Source: Stenopsyche tienmushanensis (taxonomy: Eukaryota; Arthropoda; Insecta; Trichoptera; Stenopsychidae). Taken from it: a DNA stretch of 64,000 bases. Each line of letters begins with the position of its first letter. Position 1 is the stretch's first letter. The stretch lies in contig WACJ01000523.1 of NCBI GenBank assembly GCA_008973525.1, forward strand, positions 1,488,001 through 1,552,000. The letters are read 5' to 3'. The notes beneath the pieces were generated by a model that worked only from the letters and a program-made list of their open reading frames with translations, was not told the DNA's origin and made no database searches. Position numbers and translations under genes: made by a program. Shown piece after piece: positions 52,801 to 58,800 of this stretch.

Positions 52801-55800
52801 GTTTAATTGCCTCGTTCATTTGATATTTACTATTTTAAGCTACCCCGTATCCTTAAAATAATTCGATGAGCAACGTTCTGATAGACGGTGGATCCGGAGG
52901 CAATCTAAGCTAAAGACAGCAGCATATATCGTTGGTAACCAGCACTATATTTATTGTATAAAATTTAGTACAACATAAAATAAAAACTCTCCACGAATAA
53001 ACGGCAATACAATCTACAGATTTACTTATGATAAATACAATTTTAAATAGTAACATAAAAATACTCTTTTCACTAACGGAGGTTATAAAATACATCCGCG
53101 ACATATTCAAATTATGACGACTGGCGTATGTATTTTATCGCAAATTGAACACCATGACAACTAATAGCGCTCGATTTATTCATCCCGTTGCCCATTGCCG
53201 AGAAAATCTTTCCGCATGCTTGGCATGAAATTTTCTATCGTCGTGTAATTATGTCGATTATTAGGCGTTTACAATGCAGTTAAGTGAATATAGGAGAATA
53301 ACTTTCTGCAGTAACAGCACATAATCATATATTCACTTACCTTTCTCTCGCATTGTTAGCTTGCCGCCTCTCTTTTTCTCTCGCTGCCTTTGCTTGAGGA
53401 TCAAGATCACAGTCTTCGCCTTCATCTGCACTCGAGCAGCTGTATCAACGTTTAAATGAAAATAGTACGATCATACTAATTTAAGTTCAAGGGTTAAAAT
53501 CTTATCGCATTTACAGATTATTGCTTATGATTATATATCAAGTTTAGAAAGTTGCATGTTATCATCGATAATGTCCAATAAATGTGTCAACATCAAAATT
53601 AGCACGCATTCATCCGTACGCACATAGAAAACGCTCTGGCATGCGGTCTCCTTTCAATCATAAATCGTAATAATAAAATGTTAATTTCATACCTAAAATT
53701 TCATTTCCTAAAATCATTCAGAAATTGCATTAATCCAAGATTTGATGTAAAGCAAATTATAACAGTCTAGAATACGTATCACGTTTGGTTTTAAGCGCAG
53801 TATTGCTGACCAGTCATACTATAAATGTGCAGAAATTATTTTGTAAACTGAGTTTATCAATAGAAATTCTATTAAATCGGGGACATTAAATTGATTTGCA
53901 TTCACGCTGAATATAAATTAGACCATTTATCAAACAAGGATAATAAGTAAATATTTCATTCAGTATTGTGAACTTATATGATAAAATTACGGAAGTTAAC
54001 GCGTTCAAACTATGTTATAAGCAGACCTAAATATTCAAATTCTTCGACTATTTTAACGTTCTACCAAAAATATGCAGCTATGTAATTTGAATACAGTTGC
54101 ATATTTAATATTTTGAATATCCTTCATATAGTTTATTTAAATATTATATACTAATATGAGCCGTAACTGGTCCTTATTCCTAATTTTTGAAAAATTAATA
54201 TCTTCATTGTGCATCATTTTCTAGTATAATAAAAAACATTTCATACTTAATTATTTTTGTCAATACCACACACATAACACTCACCTTGTATATTTCGATG
54301 AGTGAGCGACAGAGAGAGAGAGAGGCGGCAGGCTTTTAGGGAGTTACAACACAAATTTACAAATAATATGAAGAAAACTTATTTATGTACAAGTTTAGTT
54401 TTAATAATAATTATGGTATGAGGAAAAAATAAGAAATGTTTTATTATACGTTTCAGCAGGCAAAATTAAAATTACTGCGGATAGAAAGTCAATCGGTGAA
54501 CGGCAAATAGATACATACAAACATTTCTCATTTTATAAATATGTTAACCTTGTGATGATGAAACCTAATTAATATTTTGAATCAAAAACGCGTTTGATTG
54601 AAAGAAAATATCGGGTGTGTGAATAAGTTCCTGCCGTTCATCGTGATAATAAGTCCTGCAAATCAATTGTAACGTGGAGAGAAGATGGGTTGGGAAATCC
54701 CCGACATAAGAGACGGGGTTGCCATGCAAGCACCTTAACCACTATAGTAAGGACTTGTTTACAAGAGCATACGAATGATCCACCTTTCTGGAAGTATGAT
54801 AAGCATTCCTCAGTATCCATAAGGAGGATGGTTCCATCAAAATAATGACTTGTTTTCTAAACAATCCAATTGATCGAACGCCCCAGAAACATGGCACAAT
54901 AATATTTCAATGATAAGAGCAGCGGCAATTATCATAAAAATTCCATAACAACTGGGCAATGAAATCGTCCTTCCAGAAAGATCGCGTTTTTATTAAAATC
55001 ATTATTTTTGAAGCAATTAAACCAATCTCTGCATGTTCTTTCCGCCAGCGCTTAATCACCATAGGTTCCAAGTGCTTCAAATACAGCAAAATTCCACGCA
55101 ATTACGGTTTAATTGCCACAGAATTGGACATGTTTCACGCTACGAAAATGACAAATCGGCAGGAACTTATTCACACACCCCGTACTTGTTAAGACTACGG
55201 AGATTTTTCATTTGACATTGTACGATTTGATATACATTCAAAACAAGTTATTAATGATCAAATATAACAAACATTTAAAATATTACATATAAGACTTTAT
55301 GTAAATAAAAAATCTCCAACATATCTAGTTAAAAGTATAAGCAGATGATAAACAAAAAATGGTCATAATTTGTATCCCCAAGCTATATAAATGCACTAAT
55401 ATGCATATATCGCATACAATTAGGGCGTATTCACTTTGTAAAAAATAAAAGCTGTCCTGAAAATATATTTTTGGATTATATTAAATTAAATAAAAAGAAC
55501 ATAATCAATAAAATTTGAATAAGAAAATAAACTTACTAAAATTAGCTCATGCAAACATATACAACTTGAAATGAAATAATCTCCAAAAACTATTTATCAT
55601 ACCACCCCGATAAAATCTATGAATATAAAATCCAAAGTACATAAACACATTCAAAATTAATGCAATAACAAATATTTTCATTGCAAATACACATTTAATT
55701 TTTTTTATGTTTTAAAAAGTGAAATAAAGTTTTCATTATTGAATCTATTTTTAAAATAAGAAAAATCCAAGTGTTTATATTTCCAAGGGTTAGTTTCTGC

Positions 55801-58800
55801 GGACTGTTTATATGCAATGAAAATGAAATTCGTTAATAATCGGTTAAAATGTAGTATGAAATTATAAAGCATTAAGAAATAATTAATAGTGATCCATTAA
55901 AAACGCATGTGTTAGGATATATATATATATATATATTAAGGGTCAAAAACTATAATATTAGAAAAGATATGAAAATCATTTGAATATTACACAATCGGGA
56001 TGTTACTCGAAACAAAATCTACAAGCAGGAAGGCGGAGGGGGAAAGAAAACGAAATTGATTTAAAATTATGCTCAATCGACGATCAAACAAAATCTAAAT
56101 ATCATCTCATAATCAAAGAACCAAGCGTAAAATGATAAGAACACAAGCTAGCGAAATAAGGATTCAACAATGCAAACTATGAAATTACAAGTGATCACAC
56201 CACCAAAGAAATGACAAGGAGCTTTCCAAATTTTGTGACAAATGCAAATATTATGATATTCAATTATGAGACAGTGACATATCACAGCATGCGGTGCTGA
56301 TGGTTGGTATATTCACCTCTCCCTGACGTTGTTGGCCTGCCGCCTCTCCTTCTCACGAGCCGCTTTAGTACTGGGATCTCCACCGTCATCCCCCTCATCG
56401 GCGCTGGAGCAACTGCCACCATAACTGTACAATGAGCTATAGCAAACTGATCCTACTACATAGCTTAGCCCATATTTATAAACTAACCTAACATTCCCAG
56501 AATCTACTGCTTAACACGAACACAATATTAATTTATCGGACCGCAGAACGATTCCCCCGATAATAAAAGTGATTCACGACACGGTAATATTAAAACCGCA
56601 GCATTATATGTGCTAACTTTGCATGACGTAACGATAATATTTTTTTAAAAAATCAAATCATTCAGCTATACATTATATGCGAAATGCAAAAATCCCATCA
56701 TAATGTAACACTCTGACAATAAAATAGTTTTACACTAATCACCATGAACGTGCAGGAGATGTGAATATATATATATATTAACGGATTTTAAATAAATAAA
56801 ATCTCATCGAGGGTCAACGCCGCACCCAATGTCACACATATTAAGAAATTCAATTTCATTACTCTGGTCGGATCAATCAAATGAAAAATAATAATAGAAA
56901 AACAACAAAATGCAATTTCATACTACAGATTATCACATTAATAAGGGAGAGAGGTGCAAATGGTAGAAAATTAAAAATGAATGTCAATCAAAATAAAAGT
57001 AAATAAGACAAAACGGAAAGGATAATCTATTTGTTAATAATTATGAGCAGACTGTGTAAAACAATTTTTTTCACTTTGGATTATGAAAGAATTTACTCGA
57101 AATGTTCATACAAAAGGAAATCAAACATAAATAAAAGGAAAATTGCTTGTCAGAATATATATTCACCTCTCTCGCACATTGTTGCAGTGTCGGCGGTGGA
57201 CAACTGCGTTGTCGTCCCCCTCCCCAATGGTGGACGTGGAATTACCACGTCCTGCACCATTGCTGAAAGTAAGTTCGTTTACAAATATATCTCACATATA
57301 ACCAAAACTGGTCACGTAATAGTTTTTATTTATGCATATACATTATGCCAGTAAATCGTTTTATAGTTTTTTAAGTTCAAGAAATATGTGATGCGACTGT
57401 TATATTTGTTTACTTCCACATAGACGACTAATCGTCGGTCTTATCGTTCGATCTGCGCGACACTCAGGTCTTCTTTTCTGAGCTAAACTGACTGCACATT
57501 ACAAATAATTATTTAATCACTCTCACGTCTTTGCAAATAGAGACGATTCTGATGCTGTTAAAAAAATATCAACAATATCTAAGTTCAGATAACATTTGGT
57601 ATTCGAGAAGTGGCTTTCTATTACTCGCAAAACAAACATATTTACTTTCATAATGTTCCAGCACTTCCGTTATACACGCAAGATGATAATTTCCCTGCAC
57701 GAAAATCTATATATAAAAATACACAATGATTCAGGGCGAGCATCGGAAGCGCGAGACGTTGCCAATGAATAAATATACTCACTATCTGCGAGATCTCTTG
57801 GGAGGAGGCGGTTGAGCGCGAGAAGCGGGACCGGCGGACGAAGAAGACGGCGCTGCCACACCGGACGGCGTTCCTTCGCCAGCGGACTGTTTCAGTTCTG
57901 AACCGGACGAATCCGGTGGTTCTTTGCGTTTTTCTATAAAAAAATATCAATCTCATTACAAATTTAAATCAATTTCGAGTCTCACAGTCACGCGAAAGAT
58001 TTCAAACGAAAACATGTCAAATGTCAGGATAAAATTTTAAAAAGTATAAACTATCTGATCGGCTTACTGGGGTTCGCTGCGTGCAACCTTTCGATTTTAA
58101 CAGGCACATCTGTAACCGACTGCGGTTGAAGATGGTGAGCGGAAGGCACTACTCCCGGATGAAGGCGACCTTTACAAGTTAAAAGATATCTTAACATATC
58201 ACATTTTCAGGATCATAAAGACGAACCGTCAAAGCGAAAGTTGACCGACGTCGTCTCTCCGAAAACGAAAGACGAATCCAGAGTCGCGTCAAACTCACCG
58301 GCGGGATGAGGGGCGGGATGCAGAGGCGGCGGAGCGGCCAGTTCCGAAGCGTACTCCGCTCCCAGCACCGAGAGTCCTATCTGAGACTCCGCATGATTGC
58401 GGAGGACATTGATAGCGTCGTCCAATCTCTCTTCCATTCGTGTGCCCTAAAAATGAAGAAACATTCAGCTTCGACTCTTCGACGCTGTAACGCCGCTTCG
58501 TTTTCCGAGCAATGCGACAATTTGCACGGTCCGCGCTGCGACGGTCGGCATTGACACGGAATGCAATTCAAATTGTCACATTGCAACATCAACGAAAGGT
58601 ACATATGTGTCGTTAGATGTGAACAAAATCCATTTCATGCAAAATTAAATTTTGAGCAAAAAAATATAAAGCAAAGTCGACTTTTACTCACTACAACTTC
58701 AGAATGATCCCTGAGATATCCGATCGCGTCGTCGAGCCTCTGCTGCTCTGGCGCGGATGACTTTAAAAATATAAAAAAAAGAAAAGAAAACCATGCAGAA

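Follow-up and report, generated by a model that had tools for sequence, protein, structure and literature searches.

In insects, many basic helix-loop-helix (bHLH) factors, among them those of proneural development and sex determination, have Daughterless (Da) as their common partner, and in Drosophila its gene, da, is usually described with a single form and a single bHLH domain. In the vertebrate proteins E12 and E47, the alternative exons cover the whole bHLH domain. These exons, 18A and 18B of E2A (TCF3), are described as mutually exclusive (PMC12585103, PMC8283981), and the DNA affinity of E12 is lower than that of E47 (PMC8283981). In the eyespots of Bicyclus anynana, da is reported to rank first among the genes whose splicing differs between the seasonal forms; its two mutually exclusive, temperature-responsive exons were confirmed by RNA-seq and PCR (PMC9218548). 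A further related system is the Dscam type of duplicated exons with competing RNA structures, for which a bidirectional model has been described (PMC6071210). Here, the da gene of the caddisfly Stenopsyche tienmushanensis is analyzed in a window of 64,000 nucleotides (positions 1,488,001 to 1,552,000 of contig WACJ01000523.1, assembly GCA_008973525.1; for caddisfly genomes, see PMC12576367), in which three neighboring exons, termed A, B and C, precede one shared HLH exon.

Caddisfly da resembles vertebrate TCF3 in being a class I bHLH gene whose alternative exons alter the DNA-binding half of the domain (PMC12585103, PMC8283981). In contrast to TCF3, where the whole bHLH is exchanged, only the leader and the basic region alternate in the caddisfly gene, the HLH exon is common to all forms, the alternating exon is present in triplicate, and including two of the copies does not disrupt the frame. 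The insect duplication is presumably separate from the one behind vertebrate E12 and E47. The da gene of B. anynana, which belongs to the sister order, likewise has a pair of exons, and these wet-season and dry-season exons follow the rearing temperature (PMC9218548). The caddisfly locus is similar to the Dscam type in having tandem duplicated exons and, possibly, in one element that might pair with either neighbor (PMC6071210), but the caddisfly helices would cover the 5' splice sites themselves, and exclusivity is not enforced. Another comparison is offered by crustacean da/E-protein models (P0008, P0033, P0035, P0058 and P0063), in which two successive HLH copies, INxAF and INxAL, follow one basic region. 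As in insect da, part of the bHLH coding region is duplicated in an orthologous gene, but the crustaceans double the HLH part and not the basic region. This possibly represents an HLH exon pair of the E12/E47 kind, or these may be gene-model errors.

The exon cluster of caddisfly da

The preferred reading, in which confidence is fair, is that A and B stem from an old tandem duplication and are spliced to one invariant HLH, and that their exchange tunes Da rather than changing the E-box that it reads. All da exons lie on the minus strand, and coordinates refer to the window. In the order of transcription, the shared exon E9 (57783..57933), whose peptide boundary is the same in the caddisfly Arctopsyche grandis, is followed by C (57167..57262, 96 nt), B (56317..56424, 108 nt), A (53341..53439, 99 nt) and the HLH exon (52372..52517). 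C, B and A have the same phase, each with AG before and GT after it and a length divisible by three. E9 ends with TA, and the third base of this Y codon is supplied by C, B or A, each of which leaves AG toward the R codon of NNxRER. The encoded peptides have 33 (A), 36 (B) and 32 (C) residues, and all three consist of an acidic leader followed by a basic region. Coordinates and phase thus bear out the claim of the earlier note that three phase-matched exons with AG/GT sites share one HLH exon, and neither the sequence search nor the exon model gave any HLH exon in the window besides this one.

As neighboring homologous exons of equal phase and similar length, the three look like a mutually exclusive cluster. 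However, the double and triple inclusions B+A, C+B, C+A and C+B+A all remain open, so exclusivity is not enforced by the reading frame. If all three exons are skipped (junction 57783 / 52517), TA joins an A and a TAA stop arises directly after KRSRR; therefore, at least one of A, B and C is needed for a Da protein with an HLH.

A and B are well supported as real, interchangeable da exons by predicted isoforms of A. grandis and by sequence comparison. Exon A, with Ala at position 7 of the basic region (NNARER), is the only one of the pair in the predicted isoforms X10, X12, X15 and X17. Exon B, with Val at this position (NNVRER), is the only one in X3, X14 and X16, and all 36 of its 36 residues are identical to theirs. 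X7 contains B and A in tandem, and X13 (P0006) contains a short B whose protein form fits an inner acceptor 12 nt downstream in the window (56317..56412), where an AG is present. Between A and B in the window, synonymous differences are saturated over 32 aligned codons (pS 1.0) while pN is 0.12, and the last 11 codons contain one nonsynonymous difference. The earlier note had proposed that splicing produces Da isoforms from all three exons; this holds for A and B in the predicted models of A. grandis, while C stays unproven.

The complete coding model runs from a start exon at 62289-62208 to a stop within 49913-49851 and consists of the start exon and thirteen further listed exons, not counting A, B and C. 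This gene is the caddisfly da, encoding a class I bHLH or E-protein. PF00010 (HLH) was detected in all three isoforms tested, and the HLH domain is accompanied by the E-protein extension. An E2A chain (8ubk_P) matches residues 7-105 of the 105-residue query with an E-value of 3.1e-40. Among the matches listed, the nearest proteins are isoforms of transcription factor daughterless from A. grandis (Hydropsychidae). The B+A model has 616 residues, the same length as X7, with 560/616 identical, and a model including exon E3 agrees with X3 in 564 of 652 columns. Downstream of the HLH exon, the next coding exon (52143..52294) and the last coding exon with its TAA stop (49851..49913) were located. 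Upstream, exons E7a (58692-58760) and E7b (58299-58446) both encode an LDDAI motif; E7a was considered as an extra alternative exon, but it looks ordinary and co-occurs with E7b in A. grandis models and in the termite model P0096.

The Val/Ala pair across insects and its proposed effect

B-type queries were used in two protein searches, from which the best 120 of 776 and the best 120 of 138 matches gave 194 distinct proteins. With species assigned from the listings, these cover 120 named insect species in ten orders, five crustaceans and three unnamed proteins. Basic units were counted with the pattern RR.[ATC][NT]N.RE. Among the matches listed, position 7 in the units of named insects is either Val (178) or Ala (113) and nothing else, and all 113 of the Ala units stand directly before the HLH. 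The Val unit occurs in 117 of the 120 insect species listed and in all ten orders; the three species without it (Cydia splendana, Plutella xylostella and Spodoptera frugiperda) are listed only by A forms. Models with Val and then Ala were found in 73 of the 120 species listed; a Val unit immediately preceding the HLH is present in models of 49 named species and in some unnamed proteins. There are 22 distinct 19-residue forms among the Val units (117 species) and 28 among the Ala units (77 species), with positions 1, 2, 5, 6, 7, 8 and 9 invariant within each group. The B-like exons that the earlier note proposed to look for in other insects are thus present in ten orders among these matches. 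Exon B is therefore old, and the pair seems to have been kept across them. The five crustacean models have Ala (four) or Gln (one) at position 7 and no Val. In the Popillia japonica model P0001, two basic-plus-HLH units follow one another, Val first and Ala second, possibly an annotation fusion.

For the comparison with known DNA contacts, the basic region was numbered so that RR of RRQANN are positions 1 and 2 and Glu of RER is position 9. According to the parts of PMC8431614 used here, bHLH proteins contact bases at positions 1, 2, 5, 6, 8, 9, 12 and 13, and the backbone at 1, 2, 4, 6, 8, 10 and 12-14 as well as at some HLH positions outside the basic region. The E47 residues listed on the E-box are Arg548, Asn551, Asn552, Glu555, Arg556, Arg558, Asn563 and Lys585 (PMC8283981); residue 553, the equivalent of basic position 7, is not included. 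Within positions 1-13, A and B differ at position 7 alone, and they also differ in the leader. The earlier note had claimed that the isoforms carry different DNA-contact residues; since A and B are identical at all listed contacts and position 7 is in neither list (PMC8431614, PMC8283981), this fails for the A/B pair. Judged from these sequences, a tuned affinity or altered partner contacts are likelier than a new specificity.

The preferred reading would work as follows. A and B would have arisen when the exon coding for leader plus basic region was duplicated in tandem long ago. Splicing would join A, B or B+A to the one invariant HLH exon, as it presumably does in this caddisfly as well, and because this exon is invariant, the isoforms should dimerize with the same partners. 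These forms share every listed DNA-contact residue and differ in the leader and in Ala or Val at position 7; the tandem form, in addition, has another basic segment upstream of the one next to the HLH. Val favors the helix less than Ala, and it is on DNA that the basic region folds. The exchange may consequently tune affinity or alter contacts with cofactors or kinases, while the E-box read would be unchanged; this tuning would be comparable to the affinity difference between E12 and E47. More tentatively, which exon is chosen may be influenced by RNA helices that cover the donors.

Several points weigh against this reading. The evidence for the isoforms consists of public gene models, and the B+A models among them speak against a clean either/or switch. 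The protein database was clustered at 90 % identity, so that the isoforms of a species may hide behind one representative, and since both searches were seeded with B-type sequence, the frequencies lean toward B. The functional part of the reading is what we infer, and no DNA-binding data for the Val form were found in the literature searched.

Exon C and the antisense elements

Exon C was recovered by a scan of the interval between E9 and the HLH exon for open, in-phase exons of 60-150 nt, with their last 11 residues scored against the end of B. Three candidates resulted, one ending as B does, one as A and one as C; the candidate for B began at an AG upstream of the actual acceptor. The score of C is 41, a value that none of 2000 dinucleotide shuffles of the introns together with C reached (0/2000, largest 16), which rules out a chance origin. 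In tblastn, C matches B weakly (E 0.002), with the likeness at its start and end. It lacks REKERRQA and retains RR..NNVRER. Positions 1, 2, 5, 6, 8, 9 and 10 are kept, and positions 3, 4 and 7 are altered, of which 4 is among the backbone contacts listed. Its sequence suggests a third, diverged copy of the B type whose use is uncertain.

The alternative that survives best concerns this exon: C and the antisense elements described below may be duplication relics, partly inverted and without function, which appears about evenly balanced with their having one. In favor of this, a protein search with C gave five candidates, none of them a match to C at E-values up to 10; however, in a database clustered at 90 % identity, isoforms with C could be hidden. 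REKERRQA is gone from C, and its last 11 codons depart from those of B at 12 nucleotides, six of the changes being synonymous and six nonsynonymous. In addition, the antisense element bar1 looks as if the end of exon B or C had been copied in inverted orientation. On the other hand, C retains its splice sites, phase, open frame and seven contact positions, and none of the 2000 shuffles reached its score.

The second alternative, possible but doubtful, is that competing RNA helices over the donors set the exon choice, bar1 pairing with the B or C donor and bar2 with the A donor. The 9-mer GTGAATATA occurs in five copies on both strands of the 64 kb (shuffle mean 0.94; 0/100 shuffles reach five). 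Two copies sit at the donors of C and B, a third lies 4 nt inside that of A, and the remaining two are antisense, at 56761-56769 and 53284-53292 in the same introns. Shuffled sequence seldom has two or more such antisense copies there (p 0.0014, 5000 shuffles). The antisense element bar1 (56742..56772, minus strand), between C and B, is complementary to the 3' end and donor of both C (26 nt, 85%) and B (28 nt, 79%), and bar2 (53278..53295, minus strand), after A, can pair with the A donor (18 nt, 89%, with a 29 nt loop); for both, any function is presumed. By alignment score, bar1 exceeds all shuffles against the B end (0/300) and gives 0.003 against the C end. A 12-bp hairpin near the A donor has p 0.0004 against shuffles, while the lowest value among 14 other donors is 0.37. 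Furthermore, 13 of the 15 donors in the model have G at +5, and the two exceptions, both with A, are B and C.

All of these tests were made post hoc, after the observation. In a fold of 1071 nt, bar1 pairs with the B donor at probabilities of 0.77-1.0 at 14 of 15 positions, but with the C donor at 0.0 at all 15, so that in this fold an element complementary to two exon ends pairs with only one of them. The hairpin test asked a looser question than a second test in which the donor GT was required to lie in the helix, and in the latter only C stood out, whereas neither A (p 0.75) nor B with downstream sequence (p 0.72) did. The A end compared with its whole own intron is ordinary (p 0.56), the local fold of A is modest (8/200 shuffles as good) and that of B weaker than shuffles (196/200 as good). 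Among 56 comparisons with control exons, two reached p 0.007. A further candidate, bar3 (54311-54334), lies between B and A and is antisense to the segment coding for REKERRQA in both exons (24 nt, 88%, and 20 nt, 90%). It was not relied on, as the best match of A lay elsewhere and its best p of 0.013 (for B) among 80 comparisons is nonsignificant after multiple tests.

Other features of the window were recorded beside the gene, and a comparison with Rfam gave no match in the window. The intron between B and A contains an inverted repeat (54606-55187) with 31 nt arms (90%) and a 520 nt spacer that looks derived from a short DNA transposon. On the plus strand, an open reading frame at 37315-38478 encodes a Nop snoRNA-binding domain (E 6e-86), and two transposase fragments of the DDE_Tnp_1_7 family lie at 19345-20047. 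Tandem arrays are found at 1138-2968 (period 153, 11.7 copies) and 41557-42116 (period 28, 20 copies).

Tandem inclusion, DNA-binding specificity and seasonal splicing

A third alternative, which we consider unlikely, is that B serves mainly as a cassette ahead of A, so that Da would have two basic segments, the first of them separated from the HLH by the other, with B alone as a minor form. The Val-then-Ala models counted above in 73/120 insect species fit this, as does the observation that every double inclusion tried is in frame. They also make the word alternative, used in the earlier note for these exons, too strict. Against the cassette stand the 49 named species listed, together with the unnamed proteins, in which Val lies directly before the HLH, including A. 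grandis X3, X14 and X16. Clustering at 90 % may favor the longer tandem form as the representative, and the extra residues between the units of some Val-then-Ala models may indicate annotation errors.

It is rather more improbable that A, B and C change the DNA-binding specificity, so that splicing would switch the E-box read by every Da heterodimer. The A/B change does sit in the basic region, and Val at position 7 is kept without exception in the units counted; yet this position is outside both contact lists, and A and B agree at every contact residue. Twist proteins have Val at basic position 7, and NeuroD and Neurogenin have Ala. A preference for CAT half-sites is described for Twist proteins and also for NeuroD and Neurogenin (PMC8431614); the former suits a switch, the latter speaks against it. 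For Scute and Atonal, an influence on specificity is described even for residues that do not face the DNA (PMC8431614), so the idea of a switch is only lowered in likelihood. An expression of A alone, with B a mere error of annotation, is very improbable, given the same Val exon in ten orders and the synonymous saturation between A and B at low pN.

The preferred reading of A and B as old, interchangeable duplicates could be extended. At least since the common ancestor of the ten orders, insects may have had a splice-switched E-protein with Ala, Val and double-basic forms, to which the caddisfly lineage added a third exon; donor helices would choose the form, and this design may underlie the temperature switch of Bicyclus. 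This chain as a whole is a long shot, with a probability below that of a change in specificity. With a single form in the fruit fly, a splice-switched insect Da could have escaped notice. RNA helices melt with temperature, so the same design could underlie the seasonal da switch of Bicyclus. It is our guess that the seasonal exons of B. anynana are B and A; a later B. anynana model (P0027) has Val and then Ala within one protein.

In the literature searched, which leaves most subscription journals outside, no paper was recognized as describing these basic-region exons. The word daughterless is absent from the main text of two studies on exon prediction (PMC3228551, PMC3923563), and a wasp study reports 19 da isoforms (PMC8228208). 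The swappable basic-region exon pair of da with its shared HLH, apparently conserved across insects, has its nearest functional parallel in E12 and E47, an orthologous gene with a different exon arrangement.

A duplicate of the basic region kept in ten orders with one fixed residue difference suggests that a part of Da regulation has possibly been missed where Drosophila served as the model. For Bicyclus, the A/B pair would be a concrete candidate for the unexplained seasonal splicing of da.

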